A DNA stretch of 48,748 nucleotides from Hyphococcus sp. (GTDB lineage: Bacteria > Pseudomonadota > Alphaproteobacteria > Caulobacterales > Parvularculaceae). The position numbers were made by a program, and so were the translations under genes. Each line of letters starts with the position of its first letter. The stretch's first letter is position 1. Location of the stretch: the NCBI GenBank assembly GCA_021776345.1, contig JAJFGC010000091.1, positions 1 through 48,748 of the forward strand. The letters are read 5' to 3'. The notes below the pieces were generated by a model. It saw nothing but the letters and a program-made list of their open reading frames with translations, was not told the origin of the DNA and ran no database searches. Shown piece after piece: positions 6,018 through 46,996 of the stretch.

Positions 6018-6599
6018 TCACTCACCGATGAGGAAAAGCGCCTCTTCACGTTCCTCATAGCATTCGTTTGTTCGTGGACAAACTAGATCCGGACCGAGCA
6101 CCTCACCAGCGCGGCTTACCCAGCCCTTTCGCCGGGCAGGGGCGCCGACCATCAGCGCGTAAGGTTTTACATCCCGGGTAACGACAGCGCCTGCGGCCAC
6201 GAAACAATATTCGCCGAGCTCAGTTGCTCCGTCAGATGGTCCGCATACAATCGTCGCATTCGCGCCGATTGTAGCGCCGCGTCGCGCGATGATTTCTCCG
6301 AATTCCGCCTTGCGGCTAACAAAAGCTCGTGGGGTCAGAACATTCGTAAAAACACAGGAGGGGCCGCAAAATACTCCCTCTTCCAGTGTCACGCCTTCGT
6401 AAATAGAAACGTTGTTTTGAATTTTGCAGCCGTCCGAAATGTTCACATTCGGGCCGATCGCAACATTTTGGCCGATGGATACATTCCGGCCGATCTGCGA
6501 ATCTGACAGGATGTGGGAAAAGTGCCAGATTTTTGTGCCTTCGCCGATAGTGCACCTATCGTCGATAACGGCGGTTTCGTGTATTTGTGGCGGCGTCAT
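6018..6599 (-). CDS. wbpD: UDP-2-acetamido-3-amino-2,3-dideoxy-glucuronate N-acetyltransferase, WbpD/WlbB-like
   Basis: 193 residues, the usual WbpD length. It is a left-handed beta-helix acetyltransferase starting [20 protein letters not shown] and containing [39 protein letters not shown] and [15 protein letters not shown], all diagnostic of the WbpD/WlbB subfamily. It uses acetyl-CoA to acetylate the 3-amino group made by the WbpB/WbpE pair. The partner genes lie about 9-13 kb away on the same strand, and a decayed second wbpD copy lies at 14400-14722. The gene is divergent from a decayed GT4 gene at 6676, and the spacer resembles that at 14325-14399. Confidence 0.9.
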
Positions 6600-6675
6600 G
6601 ATTATCTTTCCGATTACGGTTCACTGATTGCTAAAATCACGACGGCGGGAAAGCAAGCGGTAACGGCGTGGGGCT

Positions 6676-7237
6676 TGCAAAACCTGCGCTTCTTCTTCCG
6701 TGGTCGTGAGTCGCTAACAATCCATGCGTCCGCTATGGGCGATACGCTTGCAGCCATGGGTTCGATGGCGCGATTGGCGCGTCGTATGGTTGGTGACGGA
6801 CATCTCCGCGCCTCCCGTGAGACAGATGCCGCCATTCCCTTTGAGCGCGGGCAGGTCGGACGGCGGTGCTGAGCCTCTTGGCGACCACTTCGCGCCGTGG
6901 CTCTTGAGGTGACAGGACCATCATTGGTGATCGACAATAATTGGCAGCGCTGCCAATCGCACTACAGGCCGTGTAGGCCCACGGCGGCGTCTATGTGCAT
7001 GACAGCCAGGAGATGGTGGTTGAACAATTTGCCGAACATCCTGCGGGGCGAACTTCACGCGGCCGAATATCGGCACAGTGGAGCATTGATACATAGCCGA
7101 CCTCGCCGTGACAACGGTCGTTTCTCAGCCCATCGCCGACTACCTTGGTCAGCAATACACCCGAAATCGCGCCAGTAAAGGCGCTGCGTAATACGCCCGC
7201 CTCTCAAGTAATAGACGTCCGTCCGAGCACGTATTCC
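6676..7237 (+). pseudogene. Decayed GT4 glycosyltransferase, degenerate copy of the gene at 12957-14324
   Basis: No long ORF survives, but translated pieces in shifting frames line up in order with the intact 455-residue glycosyltransferase. ALLLPWS followed by a stop and VANNPCVR corresponds to ALLLTWSPVADDPRVR. PSLVIDNNWQ, then LPIALQA and VYVHDSQEMVVEQFAE correspond to PMLVIANDWQ, LPIAAQA and VYVYDSHELAVEQFAQ. VTTVVSQPIADYLGQQY corresponds to VTTAVSASIAKFLSQRY, and ALRNTP to VLRNTP. Stops, frameshifts and an internal deletion of roughly 245 bases show loss of function. Homology stops near 7237, just before the 3' end of the membrane-protein gene. It is divergent from the intact wbpD, mirroring the pair at 12957-14722. 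Confidence 0.8.
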
Positions 7238-7249
7238 TCAAAAGCTTGG

Positions 7250-8419
7250 TTAGACAAACTCGGTCGTATCGTCAAAAACGTCACCGGACGAGGTTGGGGA
7301 CGGCACGGTCTCCGCTCCGCTCGCCAGCGTAATGTAGTTGGCAAAATATGGATAAAAAGATCCCGTGATCGCCAGAGCAGACATCAAAATGTTCATACCT
7401 CGTAAAAAAAAGCGCAAAAGCACGAGCGAAATGAGGAGCTTCGTGATCGAACCGACTTCGCCATTTTGAAATGCGATGAACCAAAGAACGATCACGAATA
7501 ACGCGATCGACATCGACATAGCATTGATAAACTGTGTAAACGGCGCCAGCGCAAGGCGGGCCTGATAGGCTTCAAGAAATGCGCTGTATTCCTTGTCTCC
7601 AACGACCGTGCTACGCCAGCTTCCCGGTGAGTTGTGATGCGCGGCGAGGAAACGCCTCGCGAAGAACTTCTTTGCGAGTCCAAACTCACTGCCTGCCTCC
7701 TTCATACGGCGGCTCGTTCGCGAGGAATGAATCGTAAAACGAAGGAATGCAGGTGATAGTAGAACGAGCGCAGCGACTAGCATTGCTGTCAAAGAGAAGT
7801 TCAACCAGAAAGACACCGCGAGTGCGATTGCCGCCGTTAAGGCCGCCGGGATAGCGCTTAGCAACTGAATCAGCATTCTCCCCATAAATCGCGGACTTTG
7901 ATGCAGAATCTCCGTTTCTAACTCCGCTGGAATCTCTTGTCCCTCGCGGCGCTTGCAGCGAATGAGTTCGATGGCGGCAACAAAACGTTCTGTTTCGAAA
8001 TCAGCCGCAAGACGAATTGCGTGACGGCGCGCCTTGTAGATCAACACACCGGCAAGCGAAATAAGGAAAGCGATAACGCTGGTCGCCGCGAGAACAGCGG
8101 CTTGATTCTCGGGATCGACGATCTTCGCCAGCATTGGATCGGGTGCGAACGAGATGTGAGTGACGATTTTTATTGCTGCGACTAAAGCAAAGGCTTGCAT
8201 GAACGCACCCGCAAGCTCAAGAATTGCGATCATCGCTGATCGTTTAAAAAATTGTGGCGTAAGACAGCCGAGCAACCAGACCACGCAGACTCTCAAACGA
8301 CGGACTACATCCCGTGCGAATTCGACACCACTTTCAAACCGACCGTCTGTCAAAATGAGTTTCAATTCATGTACTCCGACGATACGTCGCTGCATGTGCA
8401 TCGCAGCGAGACGTTCCAA
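7250..8419 (-). CDS. Polytopic membrane protein resembling an ABC-exporter transmembrane domain without ATPase domain
   Basis: 389 residues with about six hydrophobic segments: near residues 60-85, 108-128, 185-205, 207-230, 300-325 and 335-365. Spacing and the long charged cytoplasmic loops (YKARRHAIRLAADFETERF, SRTSRRMKEAGSEFGLAKKF) resemble the type-I ABC exporter membrane domain. There is no Walker A, signature or Walker B motif, and no nucleotide-binding subunit gene sits beside it. It may work with an ATPase encoded elsewhere, or be the surviving half of an MsbA/PglK-like flippase (inference). The first 45 residues are not hydrophobic, and a downstream start is possible. Its 3' end abuts the decayed GT4 gene, and it is divergent from the GT4 fragment at 8545. 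Confidence 0.6.
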   Translation of the reverse strand: MERLAAMHMQRRIVGVHELKLILTDGRFESGVEFARDVVRRLRVCVVWLLGCLTPQFFKRSAMIAILELAGAFMQAFALVAAIKIVTHISFAPDPMLAKIVDPENQAAVLAATSVIAFLISLAGVLIYKARRHAIRLAADFETERFVAAIELIRCKRREGQEIPAELETEILHQSPRFMGRMLIQLLSAIPAALTAAIALAVSFWLNFSLTAMLVAALVLLSPAFLRFTIHSSRTSRRMKEAGSEFGLAKKFFARRFLAAHHNSPGSWRSTVVGDKEYSAFLEAYQARLALAPFTQFINAMSMSIALFVIVLWFIAFQNGEVGSITKLLISLVLLRFFLRGMNILMSALAITGSFYPYFANYITLASGAETVPSPTSSGDVFDDTTEFV

Positions 8420-8544
8420 ACAACGGGGCCTTTCCGGTCAGCTTGGCCGTCTGTTTGGAAGCTATGCACCAAAGCCAAAATCCCGTAATCTGTAAAAATG
8501 ACAAAAAGACGCTCCCAAGCAATTCAAGAACGGTCGAAACTCTG

Positions 8545-8799
8545 ATGGCATCACTTTCTCCATACGACGCGCCAATAGACAAGGTTGCCATGCTCGTATT
8601 CAACCCTTGCGCACCGGACCACCGCGTAACGAAAGAAGCGGAATATCTCGCTTCAACCGGCAAACAGGTTAGAGTGTACTGCCTACTAAAAGAAGGACTA
8701 CCAGAACGCGAAACGATAAATGGCGTCGAATACCTGCGTTTTGGTATTAACTGGAGTAAGACCCTCAGGCGCATTCTGACCTTTCGAGACCCGTTTTAA
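8545..8799 (+). pseudogene. N-terminal fragment of a GT4 glycosyltransferase, cut off by the inversion at 8796-9870
   Basis: 84 residues from the ATG at 8545; the track start at 8443 adds an unlikely leader. KVAMLVFNPCAPDHRVTKEA, then ASTGKQVRVYCLLKEGLPER and INGVEYLRF are the first strand-helix-strand unit of a GT4 enzyme. The frame then stops (RDPF, TAA), far short of the 370-450 residues expected. The missing remainder (from KLVVTKLA, with HAHDLHTLPTG and YDSHELETHR, to the C-terminus) lies on the opposite strand as the tail of the 1,212-residue ORF. Joining base 8795 to the reverse complement of 8796-9870 gives an uninterrupted 441-residue GT4 protein. As it stands, this piece cannot be an active enzyme. 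Confidence 0.8.
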
Positions 8800-9870
8800 G
8801 CCTGTGCGGCACGGTTTTTCGCGACCAATTGGTATACATTTTCGATCGTACGGCATTGAGCGCGCCAGGCATGCTCTTCAGTCAACTGCGCCAACACCTT
8901 CGGAGACGGTTTCGCGGCGCTCCCTTTATCCAATAGTCGCTTGATTGCTGCCGAACAGGCGTTCGCGTCATAGGGCGGATAAATTTCACCAAGATCATAA
9001 CGCTCGACAAATTTTCTGATCTCCTGGAGGTCTGACGCCACGATCGGCAAACCAGCAAAAGCCATCTCAAAGAGCTTGTTCGGCATCGCGTATTCGTAGG
9101 ATAGCGTCACCGGCAAGATCGGGATCACTCCGACGTCGGCGCTTTTAATAAAACTGACGACCGTTGCCGCTGGCACGGGATCAACTAAATGGAAACGGTC
9201 GGCGACACCCAGTTTTTCCGCCTCAGCCCGCAGGGAAACGACCGTTTCTTCCCGCTGAGGCCCTACAGTCGCGAATTCAACATCCGGTAGCGAAACCAGC
9301 GCCTTCAAGACCATATCAATGCCGCGGTTGAGCGTGACGAAACCTACGTAAACAATGAGTTTCGTCTCGCGCGACAAGCCGAGACGTATGCGCAAGGTGT
9401 CTGTGCCTGTCTCAGTTTCATTCTCACCCTCACCCTCTATTACTGGTGCGTTTCTTACAACCGCCGGACGGGTGATATTGTATTTCCGCTGGAGGTGGTC
9501 GGCGATGGCGTCGCTTACTGTGATGACGGCATCGCAGTCCTTGATTGACCGCTTTTCGAGCCACTCGATTGTCTTTTGCCGGATCGGCGGCGGCGGCGGC
9601 TGGCGGTGCGTTTCAAGCTCGTGCGAATCGTAAATCAGCGCCGCACCGGTTTTCTTGGCAGTTGCGCGTCCTGTCGGTAGCGTGTGGAGATCATGAGCAT
9701 GGACCACATCGGGACGCCACTCAGCGACATCTTGCGCGACGGCGTCGCTGAACGCCGCATATTTAAGGAACTGACTGCAACGGCTAATAATGAAGCGGCT
9801 GGCTGGTTTAATTACCAGTTTGCGTGTTGCCGCCTTGGTGATAGAGGCAAGTTTCGTGACCACTAGCTTG
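8796..9870. other. Apparently inverted 1,075-bp segment carrying the C-terminal 357 codons of a GT4 gene
   Basis: Breakpoints follow from the reading frames. The left junction is CCGTT|TTAAGCC (8795/8796); the right junction, read on the minus strand, is GCGCCCTT|CAAGCTAG (9871/9870). Reversing the segment does two things. The plus-strand fragment continues in frame (RDPF then KLVVTKLA) to a 441-residue GT4 protein. The minus-strand gene gains a stop exactly at the junction (APF then TAA), giving 855 residues. The restored convergent genes share the overlap TTAA. The two junctions form a short imperfect inverted repeat (CCGTTTTAAGC versus CGCCCTTCAAGC). No recombinase gene is nearby. The sequence cannot tell whether this is a fixed scar, a reversible switch or an assembly error. 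Confidence 0.75.
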
Positions 9871-12434
9871 AAGGGCGCAAAAGGGCCATCATTACGCGCC
9901 GACTCAGCAAGCCGCTTGAGTCGCGCCGATCGGAATGGACTATACGCCGGTGCTGCTGCAGCTGAACCCGAGAGCGTCTCTTCAGCAAGCTTAAGTTCGC
10001 GCTGCAATATTGAGTTTCTTTCCCGTAGCACGTTTACCTTGCGCTCAAGCGAGCGCATTTTCACACCATTATCTCGATCGTGATGGATCGCTCGCACAAT
10101 GTAGTCGAGCGGCGTATCGAGATCGATCGACATTGGCCTCGAGTTTACTTCCTGATAAAGGTTGTGCAGTTTCTGGGCGACGACATTCGCGTCATGATGC
10201 GCCTCGCAATATGCGCGGCCCGCCTGGGACAAGCGCGCACGCTCGTTCAAGTCCAAGATCAACCGTTGCAAGACAGTGGCCACGGACTCCGGCGTGGCGA
10301 CGGCAATCGGCAACTCGCCGCCCAGATGATGTATAAGATCTTCACGCACATAGGAAACAACGGGCTTGCCAAGAGCCATCGCTTCTACTGCAAGGACGCC
10401 GTACCATCCGATACGTAGCTGGTCGACAATTATATCGGCGCGCTGATAGATTTTTCGCGCCTCGTTTTGCGGAACACCTTCGACGAGTTCAAAATCGAAG
10501 CTCACCCCATTGCGCTGCAGTCGCTCCACGGCGGCAAGCACGGCGTCGCTGCCTTTTACGCCCCGACGGCTTGGCGCATGAACAACGAGCGGTCTCGGGT
10601 TGTCGCCGAGGCCTATAAACGGCCATTTTTCAAGATTAATCGCGCGCTCAACAATGCGCGCCTCGGGCAAATAGGTTTGCAATTCCGGATCGACAACAAC
10701 GACTTCATCGGCGATTGCGCTGGCAAAATCGAGTATACGGCGTTTGGTCTCGTCATTGCCGCCGCTCTGGAGTTCACCTATCTCGCTTTCCGCATAATGA
10801 AAGGGTGTCATTGCTTTAAAGGTGCGGAAGAGTCGCGCCTCACTGCCGCGAAAATGCATGACAATCCGTTTACCGGCGGCCTTTAAGAGAAGCAGGTCGA
10901 AGCCAGCAGGAAATGCGCCGGTTGTCGGATCGATCATGAAACTGCGAGCGTGAAAATGAAAAATGTCAAAATCGTCGATCACCGCCCGCAAGGCGCCGGT
11001 CATTTCCACCGGATCGGCGGCGGATTTTACGGGATAATTGAGATCTGCCGCGTAACCGAATTTTGACGGCAAAACGTGAAGGCTCCTCGCGCTCACGCCA
11101 GGCAGTCGATCCAACGCACGGGCAAGGACCGCGGGTTGACCGGCGGATGGCGTGGGACCGTGAAGAACGCGAATTTCCTCAGCGTTGGCGTCCATCTGTG
11201 CCCCGATGATGGGGTCGATCAGCTTTTCAGGAGGGGCGCCCGCCGCCTTCGCATAGACCTCGAGCAGACGCCGCTCCTGCACTTCCCACGCAAAATTCGC
11301 GATGACCTCGCGCCGAACTTTCTGATCGCGGGCGCCTGCGGATCTATTCGACAGCAACGCATCAATGGTTTTAGCGGCGCCTGCCGGATCGTCGAAGTCG
11401 ACAACCTTGCCGGCGCCGTATTCTTTCATAAAGCCGCTCAAAGCTTTTAGAGGTGGCGCGACAACCGGAAGGCCGGCAAACACAAACTCGAACAGCTTTG
11501 TTGGCAGAGAATATTCTGTGTTTCCATAACGCTCAAATGGAATGACGCCGAGGTCAGCATCCGACAAGTATCGCCAGACTTGATCGTGAGGCGCATAAGG
11601 CAGCCAGTGAACGCGCTGCTTGACGCCGCACGCCTCTGCGGCCGCCTGGATCGCATCAACATGATCGCCTTTATTATTGGTGATAATCGCAAAGTGCGTA
11701 TCTGGCAGATGATGTAGCACAGGCATGACGCGCTCGACGCCGCGACCGGCTTTGGTCTGTCCTGCATAAACAATAAGCGGCGCCGCACCGATATCGAGGT
11801 TCGCCTTGACTGTGCCGACCGCATCATTGAGAGGCGGATAAAGCGCCGGCGCGTTGAAAATAGTCCGCATCGGCGGCAAACTGCCATATTGCTCCTTCAG
11901 AACGCCTGCAAGCCCCTCCGTCGCTGTCAGATGGTAGTCCGCATCATGAATGAATGCCGCCTCTATATCGCCGGCGAGCGTGCGGAACGCTGGTGGAATA
12001 TGGCTTGAGCCAGCGACCCATTCATGATTGTCATGAATCCAGTAAACAGGGCGGTTACTGGCATCGCGGCGGATTGCTTCGCCGAGCCCCATAAGATACA
12101 TATCGTGTGTATGCAGAACATCTGGCGCGAAGTCAGCAGCGAAACTGCGCACGTTTCGGAAGAAACATGCCATCGCCGTCAAGTGGTGGCGAAATCGAAC
12201 CTTTTCATCACTCTCGTCAGGTTTCCTTTTCGGGATCTCATCGTATTTCGAAAAGAAAAGGCAGCGGACGCCATTGTGGTATTCCTCCAAAGGGCTGTCG
12301 GCCAAGACTGCTTTCGCCGAGCGGCCAACAAGAACAAAGTCCGGAAACATTTTCCGCATTGCCGCGGCCATCTTGAGAACGCGGCTGTCGCGAACAATGT
12401 CGTTCATCACAACCATCATACCGCGGCGAGCCAT
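8796..12434 (-). CDS. Chimeric glycosyltransferase: tandem two-domain GT plus in-frame C-terminal part of a second GT4 enzyme
   Basis: 1,212 residues. Residues 1-400 form a GT4 unit (DSRVLKMAAAM, HTHDMYLMGLGE, WIHDNHEW, LIVYAGQTKAGRG, LPTKLFEFVFAGLPVV). Residues 420-760 form a second unit (EIRVLHGPTPSAGQP, MHFRGSEAR, VVHAPSRRGVKGSD, AVEAMALGKPV). A short coiled coil lies near 785-830. These parts parallel the 902-residue protein. From residue 856 the sequence becomes the back of a third GT4 enzyme (HAHDLHTLPTG, LIVYVGFVTLNRGIDM, MPNKLFEMAFAGLPIV) that lacks its first Rossmann unit. The missing piece is the fragment at 8545-8799 on the other strand, so the fusion appears to result from a 1,075-bp inversion; the original protein would be 855 residues ending APF. 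The first two domains may still be active. Confidence 0.85.
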   Translation of the reverse strand: MARRGMMVVMNDIVRDSRVLKMAAAMRKMFPDFVLVGRSAKAVLADSPLEEYHNGVRCLFFSKYDEIPKRKPDESDEKVRFRHHLTAMACFFRNVRSFAADFAPDVLHTHDMYLMGLGEAIRRDASNRPVYWIHDNHEWVAGSSHIPPAFRTLAGDIEAAFIHDADYHLTATEGLAGVLKEQYGSLPPMRTIFNAPALYPPLNDAVGTVKANLDIGAAPLIVYAGQTKAGRGVERVMPVLHHLPDTHFAIITNNKGDHVDAIQAAAEACGVKQRVHWLPYAPHDQVWRYLSDADLGVIPFERYGNTEYSLPTKLFEFVFAGLPVVAPPLKALSGFMKEYGAGKVVDFDDPAGAAKTIDALLSNRSAGARDQKVRREVIANFAWEVQERRLLEVYAKAAGAPPEKLIDPIIGAQMDANAEEIRVLHGPTPSAGQPAVLARALDRLPGVSARSLHVLPSKFGYAADLNYPVKSAADPVEMTGALRAVIDDFDIFHFHARSFMIDPTTGAFPAGFDLLLLKAAGKRIVMHFRGSEARLFRTFKAMTPFHYAESEIGELQSGGNDETKRRILDFASAIADEVVVVDPELQTYLPEARIVERAINLEKWPFIGLGDNPRPLVVHAPSRRGVKGSDAVLAAVERLQRNGVSFDFELVEGVPQNEARKIYQRADIIVDQLRIGWYGVLAVEAMALGKPVVSYVREDLIHHLGGELPIAVATPESVATVLQRLILDLNERARLSQAGRAYCEAHHDANVVAQKLHNLYQEVNSRPMSIDLDTPLDYIVRAIHHDRDNGVKMRSLERKVNVLRERNSILQRELKLAEETLSGSAAAAPAYSPFRSARLKRLAESARNDGPFAPFKLVVTKLASITKAATRKLVIKPASRFIISRCSQFLKYAAFSDAVAQDVAEWRPDVVHAHDLHTLPTGRATAKKTGAALIYDSHELETHRQPPPPPIRQKTIEWLEKRSIKDCDAVITVSDAIADHLQRKYNITRPAVVRNAPVIEGEGENETETGTDTLRIRLGLSRETKLIVYVGFVTLNRGIDMVLKALVSLPDVEFATVGPQREETVVSLRAEAEKLGVADRFHLVDPVPAATVVSFIKSADVGVIPILPVTLSYEYAMPNKLFEMAFAGLPIVASDLQEIRKFVERYDLGEIYPPYDANACSAAIKRLLDKGSAAKPSPKVLAQLTEEHAWRAQCRTIENVYQLVAKNRAAQA

Positions 12435-12956: not shown

Positions 12957-14324
12957 TTAGGCCGACTTGTTGTAGGATAAAGCGTTCTCATATGCTGCGA
13001 TGACAGACGGCGCCTCATTTTCCCAGTTGTGGATTTTTGCGGCTGCGAGCGCGGCGCGTCGTTGCCGGTTGAGAGCTTCAATCGAAATGCTGTTTAGAGC
13101 AACTGCGATTGCGTCAGGTGAAGTTCCAGCATAGGTGACGCCGGCGCCGGTCTCCTCGACGAGGCGGGCCATTTCCGGCAAATTGCTGACGGCAAGCAAA
13201 AGCCCAGCCATCAGATATTCAAAAAGCTTATTCGGTAACGCGTAACGTTTGTGTAAGGACAAGTCTGGCAAGGCCAGAAAACCGATGTCGAACTGGCTTG
13301 CGGCGTCAATAAGATCGTCAACCGCAACTGGCGGCAGGAAGTGTACGCGTTCCTGTATTTGGTGCAGCGCCGCGTGCGCTTCTAATTTTTGAATGTAACT
13401 TGGATGCCCGGGCCCACGTACATGAAATGACAGATGTGGTTCCCACATGCAAACACTCTCAATCGTTTCTTCTAGTCCTCGACCAGGCGCGATTACGCCT
13501 TGGTAGAGAACGCGGATCTCGTTGGCGCTTGGGCGAAAATTGATCGTCCTATAGGTCGGTGTGTTCCGCAGCACCATGGCTGGAGTCGTCAATTTATAGC
13601 GCTGGCTAAGAAACTTTGCGATCGACGCGGACACGGCGGTCGTGACAGCTGCGCCCGGAATATGTTTTTGTTCGACGGCGTCAATAATTGGCCGGGTAAA
13701 GCGAACCCAACTCAGATCCTGGGCGAATTGTTCAACGGCCAACTCATGGCTATCATAGACATAGACGCTGCCATTCATCGCAGCAGCTTGTGCAGCAATC
13801 GGCAAAGTCTGCCAGTCATTGGCGATGACAAGCATTGGACAGTCCGCGCTCTGGGCCGCTTCAATTGCTGCGTCATACATCGGGCGAAGGTGAGGGGATT
13901 GGCGCCAATAATCCTCAAGGTATCGGTCGGTCGCGCTGACGCCGGCTTGCTGGATCATACGACTGGCTTTCGCCGCCGTCTGCATTGCAAGCTCACTAAT
14001 CGGCGCATGACTCTCGCGAAGCCGCTGAGAAACTGTCGCGAATGGCGTCGCGAAGCTTGAGTTGCGCCGGCCAAGTGCTTCTGCAACCGGCGCAAGCATT
14101 TTCCCCGCCATTTGGCCGAGGGTCTGTTCGAAAGGTAGCGCTGCTCTCGGTTGGGCGCCGACCGCCGAGACGCTCGTTACAGGCCATTGTGGCGGCGCAC
14201 TCAAGCCGCCATCCAATCCAATGCCCATGACGCTCCACCCTGCAGCCGTTAGCGTATCTCCCATGCGGCGGACACGCGGATCATCTGCCACGGGAGACCA
14301 GGTCAGGAGAAGGGCATGTTTCAT
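12957..14324 (-). CDS. GT4-family glycosyltransferase
   Basis: 455 residues. The N-terminal unit begins MKHALLLTWSPVADDPRVRR, with YVYDSHELAVEQF near residues 188-200 and VTTAVSASIAKFLSQRY near 228-243. The C-terminal GT-B half starts near 268 (EIRVLYQGVIAPGRGLEETI) and contains VHFLPPVAVDDLIDAAS and the donor-site stretch ALPNKLFEYLMAGLLLAVSN. It probably transfers a sugar onto the growing lipid-linked repeat unit at the cytoplasmic membrane face; the specific sugar is unknown. A badly decayed copy lies at 6676-7237 in opposite orientation. The gene is divergent from a decayed wbpD with a 75-base spacer. Its GT4 assignment is firm; its substrate is not visible. Confidence 0.85.
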   Translation of the reverse strand: MKHALLLTWSPVADDPRVRRMGDTLTAAGWSVMGIGLDGGLSAPPQWPVTSVSAVGAQPRAALPFEQTLGQMAGKMLAPVAEALGRRNSSFATPFATVSQRLRESHAPISELAMQTAAKASRMIQQAGVSATDRYLEDYWRQSPHLRPMYDAAIEAAQSADCPMLVIANDWQTLPIAAQAAAMNGSVYVYDSHELAVEQFAQDLSWVRFTRPIIDAVEQKHIPGAAVTTAVSASIAKFLSQRYKLTTPAMVLRNTPTYRTINFRPSANEIRVLYQGVIAPGRGLEETIESVCMWEPHLSFHVRGPGHPSYIQKLEAHAALHQIQERVHFLPPVAVDDLIDAASQFDIGFLALPDLSLHKRYALPNKLFEYLMAGLLLAVSNLPEMARLVEETGAGVTYAGTSPDAIAVALNSISIEALNRQRRAALAAAKIHNWENEAPSVIAAYENALSYNKSA

Positions 14325-14399
14325 GAAAAATGAACCGATGCCGGCCTTCGTGTTGCCGGGCTTATTGGCAGTCGCAGAATGGAAATGGCAAAAGCAATC

Positions 14400-14722
14400 A
14401 TGACGTCGTTACAAATACACGAAATCAATGCAATCGACGATAACTGCCATATCGGCAAAAGGCACAAATATCCGGCGCTTTTCGCACATCTTGGTGGGGT
14501 CACGTATTGGCCACATGTTTCTGTCGGCCAAAAACGTCTCCATCGGTCTGAAAGCACCAGTCGGAGACGGCTGCAAGGTGCAAGATAGCGTTTGCGCATA
14601 TGAGGGTGTCGTGCCTGAAGACGAGGTTTCTGTAGGCCTTTTTGCCTGTCTACGAACCTCGCGACGCCGCCCGCCTTGGCGAATCGAAAATCAAGGCACG
14701 GGGAAATTATCGCTTACCGATT
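14400..14722 (+). pseudogene. Decayed wbpD copy (UDP-amino-sugar N-acetyltransferase remnant)
   Basis: Pieces in three frames match the intact WbpD at 6018-6599 in order. LQIHEINAIDDNCHIGK corresponds to [18 protein letters not shown] shifted frame gives KGTNIRRFSHILVGSRIG for [18 protein letters not shown]; shifting back gives HVSVGQK for NVSIGQN; then VGDGCKVQDSVCAYEGV for [18 protein letters not shown] further shift gives LANRKSRHGEIIA for [13 protein letters not shown]. At least three frameshifts and loss of the last third rule out function. The remnant ends against the stop of the 376-residue glycosyltransferase. It is divergent from the intact GT4 gene at 12957-14324, an inverted mirror of the arrangement at 6018-7237. 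Confidence 0.85.
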
Positions 14723-45438: not shown

Positions 45439-45466
45439 CGTGATCGCTCCTGATACGGAGAAAAGA

Positions 45467-46996
45467 ATGTCAACCGAAATTCGCGTGCCCGCTTTGGGAG
45501 AATCTGTGACCGAAGCGACCATCGCAAAATGGCTGAAAGCCGAGGGCGAGGCGGTCAGCGCTGATGAGCCCTTGGTCGAGCTTGAAACTGATAAGGTTTC
45601 GGTTGAAGTCCCGGCGCCGCAATCGGGCGTGCTCGCGAGCATCGCCGCACAGGAAGGCGATACGGTTGAGGTCGATGCCTTATTGGGTGCGATTGAGGCG
45701 GGCGCCGGCAAGACAGCTGAGGCGAAGCCAGCCGCCGCGGCGCCGCAAGAAACACAAGCCGCCGCAGCCACTGGCGGCGGCGAGGAAGTTGAAGTTCGCG
45801 TTCCGGCATCCGGCGAATCCGTCACTGAGGCGGACATCGGCGAATGGCTCAAAAAAGAAGGCGATGCCGTAACCGCAGATGAGCCGATTGTCAGCCTTGA
45901 GACCGACAAGGCGGCCATGGATGTGCCCGCGCCCGTATCTGGCGTGTTGAAAAAGATCGCGGCTAAACAAGGCGACACAGTTGAAGTCGGCGCTCTGCTA
46001 GCGGTTATTGAAAAAGGCGCCAGCGCCAAGGCAAACGGCGCCGCGACGCCGAGCGCAAGCTCCAGTGACAACCGCCCGAGCCCGCGTGACGTCGCTGCGT
46101 CCGGGCAAAGTGTTGCGGAAAGTCGCGACAAGCCGCTATCACCCGCTCCCCGCCGCGTTGCCGCCGAGCGCGGCGTCGATACGTCGTCAATAGCCGGAAC
46201 GGGAAAGGACGGCCGCGTTACCAAAGGCGACGTCTTGTCGGCAAAGGTAAAAACACCCGCGACGCCGTCAGCGCCATCAGCGCCGCGCGATCCCGGCGCC
46301 CGCGAAGAGCGGGTCAAGATGTCCCGATTGCGCCAGACGATTGCTCGGCGCTTGAAAGAATCTCAAGACAATGCAGCGATGCTGACGACGTTTAATGATG
46401 TCGATATGAGCGCTGTTATGGATCTCAGAAAACAGTACAAAGAGCTTTTTGAAAAGAAGCACGGCATCAAGCTTGGCTTCATGTCGCTTTTCACCAAGGC
46501 TTGCGTCCATGCGCTGAAAGAAGTGCCCGATGTCAACGCCGAAATCGACGGCGATCACATCATCTACAAAAACCACTATGACATTGGTGTCGCCGTCGGC
46601 TCGGACAAAGGCTTGGTCGTGCCGGTCATTCGCGACGCGGATCAGCTGTCGCTGGCGGAGATCGAATTGACGATCGCCGATTATGGCGAGCGCGCCCGCG
46701 CCGGCGCGTTAAAGCTTGAAGAAATGCAAGGCGGCACGTTTACGATCTCAAATGGCGGGATTTACGGATCGCTCATGTCAACGCCGATCCTGAACCTGCC
46801 GCAGTCAGGCATATTGGGCATGCACCGGATCGAAAAACGCCCGGTTGTCATCGATGACGAAGTTGTCGTCCGCCCGATGATGTATCTGGCGTTGTCCTAT
46901 GATCACCGCATCGTTGACGGCAAAGCCGCGGTGACATTCCTGGAGCGCGTCAAGGAAAACCTCGAAGACCCGCAGCGGCTGTTGCTTGATCTTTGA
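45467..46996 (+). CDS. sucB: Dihydrolipoamide succinyltransferase (E2), with two lipoyl domains
   Basis: 509 residues from the ATG at 45467, with GGAG six bases upstream; the track start at 45440 is a GTG. Two lipoyl domains occur: residues 1-78 (lipoyl Lys in ETDKVSVEV) and about 105-185 (Lys in ETDKAAMDV), each starting with a VPAxGESVTEA box. An E1/E3-binding domain follows near 215-250 ([20 protein letters not shown]). The catalytic core from 285 has the LRKQYK region, [17 protein letters not shown] and the active-site [15 protein letters not shown] near 480. Typical OdhB has one lipoyl domain and about 400 residues, so this is a longer form. Ala/Pro-rich linkers join the domains. Confidence 0.94.

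Follow-up and report, generated by a model that had tools for sequence, protein, structure and literature searches.

A short inversion appears to have swapped 3' ends between two convergent glycosyltransferase genes in a Hyphococcus surface-polysaccharide locus

The window, that is, the whole stretch of 48,748 nucleotides that we analyzed, is one entire contig (C284) of a draft Hyphococcus genome of 3.64 Mb in 293 contigs. In the list of open reading frames (ORFs), a minus-strand ORF of 1,212 aa occupies positions 8796–12434. Its upstream part (9870–12434, minus strand) encodes a two-domain glycosyltransferase (GT) with both GT domains complete, 855 residues long up to the breakpoint discussed below and 868 with what we take to be its own tail. 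The remaining ~357 residues (8796–9869, minus strand), now the tail of the ORF, contain the rest of an N-terminal domain and the C-terminal domain of a GT4 enzyme, with matches to the Pfam families PF13439, PF00534 and PF13692. On the plus strand, an ORF extends from ATG 8545 to TAA 8799, although the ORF list starts the same frame at an upstream TTG at 8443. The first ~71 residues of this ORF (8545–8757) form the N-terminal piece of a GT4 enzyme, a first Rossmann-type unit (..NPCAPDHRV..) severed from the rest of its gene, and are followed by 13 codons (KTLRRILTFRDPF) and TAA at 8758–8799. Neither of the present pieces thus contains both halves of the GT4 N-terminal domain.

The neighboring genes are presumably those of an acetyltransferase, a nucleotide-sugar dehydrogenase, a DegT aminotransferase and dTDP-rhamnose synthesis, and this gene set points to a surface-polysaccharide cluster. 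Several of the cluster genes also occur near homologues of the GT4 gene. The locus is flanked by a diverged inverted duplication (6286–7202 and 13553–14713; 63–64% identity over 471 and 280 bp) whose two arms have decayed reciprocally: the left arm has an intact acetyltransferase (6018–6599, minus strand) and a decayed GT4 (about 6680–7228, plus strand), and the right arm an intact GT4 (12957–14324, minus strand) and a frameshifted acetyltransferase remnant (about 14399–14720, plus strand). Beside the GT4 fragment lies an ORF of 389 aa with hydrophobic stretches (7250–8419, minus strand) that matches no Pfam or NCBIfam family. Farther along the contig, an ORF of 518 aa (45440–46996) contains a direct repeat (45476–45674 and 45791–45989; 68% identity); judging from its sequence, the ORF would be a dihydrolipoamide succinyltransferase and the repeat its tandem lipoyl domains, which would be ordinary.

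A first-pass annotation of the window had read the plus-strand ORF as the first Rossmann unit of a GT4 enzyme and the end of the 1,212-aa ORF as a GT4 back half lacking that unit. We searched the plus-strand fragment and the C-terminal part of the 1,212-aa ORF separately, such that no junction was assumed. The plus-strand fragment alone matched residues ~1–68 of five full-length GT4 homologues (L023, L026, L027, L029 and L032; E-values from 6e-11 to 3e-8), while the C-terminal part alone matched the remainder of the same homologues from about residue 53–101 onward, with the best match (E = 3e-77) covering residues 76–402 of L023. As the fragments match complementary stretches of the same full-length proteins, the split reflects true homology and not a chance effect of reading frames, and the annotation's reading of the two ORFs was borne out. 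The two pieces, one on the plus strand and the other making up the final ~357 residues of the 1,212-aa ORF, are thus halves of one GT4 gene.

The reconstructed protein, used as a query against a large set of bacterial genomes, gave ten relatives, and five of the top-scoring ones were collinear with it over almost the full length (residues ~11–440; 33–37% identity) and came from diverse bacteria, namely Alteromonadaceae, Plasticicumulans, Beijerinckiaceae, Sulfurovum and Candidatus Megaira. Rejoined as a gene of 428 aa, the pieces encode a complete GT-B protein with an N-terminal acceptor domain and a Glycos_transf_1 domain (match over positions 4–403 of the 404 in the homologue profile; 362 bits). 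The reconstruction resembles GT4 (GT-B fold) enzymes of polysaccharide loci, whose homologues of 402–421 aa are collinear with it, but differs from them in that the gene is here split, with its parts on opposite strands. Among solved structures, the 428-aa protein matched distant GT-B relatives only, which aligned with its C-terminal parts and did not help in placing the N-terminal fragment.

The exact breakpoints were less evident. In the first-pass annotation, flipping positions 8796–9870 was proposed to restore genes of 441 and 855 codons; we reproduced both lengths, but the breakpoints were off by ~38 bases on one side. The 441-aa version has a loop 13–15 residues longer than that of close homologues, whereas flipping 8758–9869 (1,112 bp) gives a GT4 of 428 aa with a loop of the length found in homologues. 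We built a profile from seven GT4 homologues and scored all 953 in-frame breakpoint pairs that yield a GT4-sized product in the scanned area. The 441-aa version scored 352.5 bits and the 428-aa version 362.0 bits, placing the pair 8796/9870 881st and the pair 8758/9869 213th. The top score of 366.1 bits was obtained with 8757/9864, and the profile alone left the GT4-side breakpoint loose over ~20 bp; it thus favors a shorter loop but does not settle the precise base.

The other gene places the breakpoint better than the GT4 profile. Before the breakpoint the two-domain GT ends in ..FAPF, and appending the 13 residues KTLRRILTFRDPF, which are surplus to the GT4 family, extends the reading to ..APFKTLRRILTFRDPF. 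With the flip of 8758–9869, the two-domain GT thereby becomes 868 aa long and ends in APF-KTLRRILTFRDPF, resembling its relatives in Psychrobacter (APFRVLRKLGLKK / APFRIMKKLGIKK), two proteins of 930 and 898 aa with the C-termini ..NAPFRIMKKLGIKK and ..KAPFRVLRKLGLKK. Against these two tails, KTLRRILTFRDPF reached a summed BLOSUM62 score of 12 in what is its best in-frame register, a score reached by 1.9% of the peptides in the window; the residues now read after the breakpoint in the 1,212-aa ORF (KLVVTKLASI) scored –18. Both tails come from Psychrobacter and are related to each other, and the support from these two homologues counts as one line of evidence. The refined segment of 8758–9869 is bounded by AAG at 8758–8760 and CTT at 9867–9869, with the exchange point of each gene at an AAG codon of equal phase, and flipping it yields genes of 428 and 868 aa that both match homologues.

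These breakpoints also assign a different place to the shared stop. The two restored genes are convergent and overlap in a TTAA containing both stops, as the first-pass annotation had proposed, but the motif, now at 8796–8799, lies at 9828–9831 in the restored layout. The plus-strand fragment ends at this TTAA because it now carries the tail of its partner, the TTAA being the native overlap inside the inverted piece. The annotation had further argued that both frames and both stops working out at one pair of breakpoints is hard to explain by chance. The frames do work out, but the argument is weaker than it was made to be: equal phase has a probability of 1/3, 953 in-frame pairs are available in the scanned area, and a crossing at equal codon phase opens both chimeras, with the stops requiring no additional coincidence. 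What is convincing is the homology of the GT4 halves combined with the reciprocal exchange of tails, rather than the coincidence of frames.

For the direction of change, we considered relatives of both genes. The two-domain GT shows 32% identity over ~780 residues to the Psychrobacter proteins of 930 and 898 aa and 34% identity to a 902-aa paralogue in the opposite orientation on the same contig (2973–5681, plus strand). In Psychrobacter fozii and Psychrobacter sp. NG25, the homologues of the GT4 and the two-domain GT are separate adjacent genes, in tandem on one strand. The spacing between the two homologues in two Psychrobacter genomes is 8 bp (L028:9734–13752 and L030:9983–13905), and the tandem adjacency in two genomes of the genus suggests that the two enzymes cooperate. 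Homologues of the chimera were absent from 60 sampled relatives searched with the GT4 query and 100 searched with the two-domain query, as well as from 385 genomes of the class, 399 genomes of the phylum, and plasmids. Close relatives carrying the locus were absent from the genus, family and order samples, the best match to the GT4 within the genus having 35% identity (G013). An alignment to L031 (521 aa) extends across the point of fusion in the 1,212-aa ORF; we did not accept it as a fusion homologue, as its upstream part is probably due to coiled-coil similarity. Because full-length collinear GT4 homologues are spread over diverse bacteria, the homologues of both genes occur separately, side by side in Psychrobacter, and the samples searched gave no counterpart of the chimera, the layout with two genes appears to be the older state.

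The opposite polarity, with the 1,212-aa protein as the ancestral three-part form and the plus-strand fragment as an unrelated remnant, would agree with the existence of multidomain GTs in the order (1,224 aa in G043, L060). The G043 protein was rejected as a natural three-domain homologue as its domains are in another order and the similarity is weak. The third unit of the 1,212-aa ORF lacks exactly the part that is present in the plus-strand fragment, and the samples searched gave no relative with the same fusion. We consider this polarity to have next to no probability.

Comparison with homologues shows the anatomy of the rearrangement, and a reciprocal exchange of 3' ends is what a single inversion predicts. 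We consider it likely that a one-off inversion of 1,112 bp, illegitimate or mediated by microhomology, swapped the 3' ends of two convergent GT genes and broke the GT4. The starting state would have been a GT4 of 428 aa on the plus strand and a two-domain GT of 868 aa on the minus strand, placed tail to tail at the TTAA stop overlap. A single inversion with breakpoints at a same-phase AAG lysine codon in each gene would then have left the GT4 with ~71 residues and its partner's 13-residue tail, and this product should be inactive. The two-domain GT would in return have traded its 13-residue tail for 357 residues of an incomplete GT4; both of its catalytic domains are intact, its predicted activity has probably been kept, and the extension would be useless.

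Exact inverted identity amounts to 3 bp at 8758/9869 and to 2 bp at the pair 8796/9870. With a background of random site pairs drawn from the 48.7-kb window only, an identity of at least 3 bp was reached by 5.7% of pairs. As at most 3 bp of inverted identity would have been used in the joining, the best reading is that illegitimate recombination or microhomology-mediated repair took place, probably a single time. The genome yielded no Ku gene, making classical bacterial nonhomologous end joining unavailable; we rejected that route, and the joining would have required template switching or alternative end joining. The confirmed cases of spontaneous inversion in Salmonella (PMC3411829) are similar in being small, having short inverted identity at their ends and being able to create new gene joints, but they have at least 12 bp of homology at their junctions in comparison with 3 bp here, and the junction being on the short side counts against our preferred explanation. 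Neither half contains a stop or a frameshift, which indicates an inversion that is evolutionarily recent, or else reversible.

Reversibility had been raised in the first-pass annotation, according to which a DNA switch might alternate between two enzymes and a chimera plus a fragment and so vary the surface glycan. A surface-polysaccharide cluster is a usual place for invertons (PMC11892184), and the reading frames are open in both orientations. In-frame chimeric genes also arise from inversions in Ureaplasma, where, as here, inversions (mba/UU172) with an endpoint inside a gene join surface-related genes (PMC3047005). Those systems show repeats and demonstrated switching, whereas the present locus has no repeat, no recombinase nearby and no sign of the other orientation in the assembly. 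The inversion switches compared use repeats of roughly 12–51 nt (PMC3047005), and the 3 bp at these breakpoints fall below both the ~12–21 bp or more of such switches and the ~12 bp or more expected for an inverton. The short imperfect inverted repeat reported in the first-pass annotation proved no better than chance: within 40 bp of the junctions proposed there, the highest-scoring inverted match reached 5, below most random pairs, and the 26-bp registered similarity was equalled by 30% of random pairs. Around the junctions, no inverted repeats above chance were found.

The search for a serine or tyrosine invertase that the annotation had suggested did locate recombinases in the genome, two large serine ones (ORFs of ~550 aa, differing from small Hin-type invertases) and four clear tyrosine ones, but all are on other contigs and have no known link to the locus. 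The 48.7-kb contig has no match to PF00239, PF00589 or PF01548, the genome has no IS110/Piv-type transposase, and no copy in the opposite orientation occurs elsewhere in the assembly. In one orientation the GT4 is reduced to a dead fragment, and no other complete enzyme takes its place. A recombinase-driven switch of the inverton or shufflon type is therefore very improbable, and so is a switch between the same two states by a recombinase with almost no requirement for site sequence. The inversion could also be an artefact of assembly or sample preparation, absent from the organism or present in a minority only. The draft is in 293 contigs and a junction identity of 2–3 bp is what chimeric molecules are expected to show; such a molecule normally gives one junction, however, whereas here both are present in a clean reciprocal exchange with no base evidently lost from either protein. 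Any inverted repeats at this spot are too short to mislead an assembler, and the assembly lacks a second copy in the other orientation, leaving us to consider an artefact unlikely.

The sequence as given does contain the inversion, now with better-defined breakpoints than in the first-pass annotation, and most likely it is an ordinary loss-of-function rearrangement. A short inversion where two convergent genes meet can in a single step swap their 3' ends, break one enzyme and make a larger chimera. The setting is a locus for cell-surface sugars, where such losses alter what phages and neighbors see. If a "three-domain glycosyltransferase" of 1,212 residues were annotated in this genome, it would not represent a natural family.
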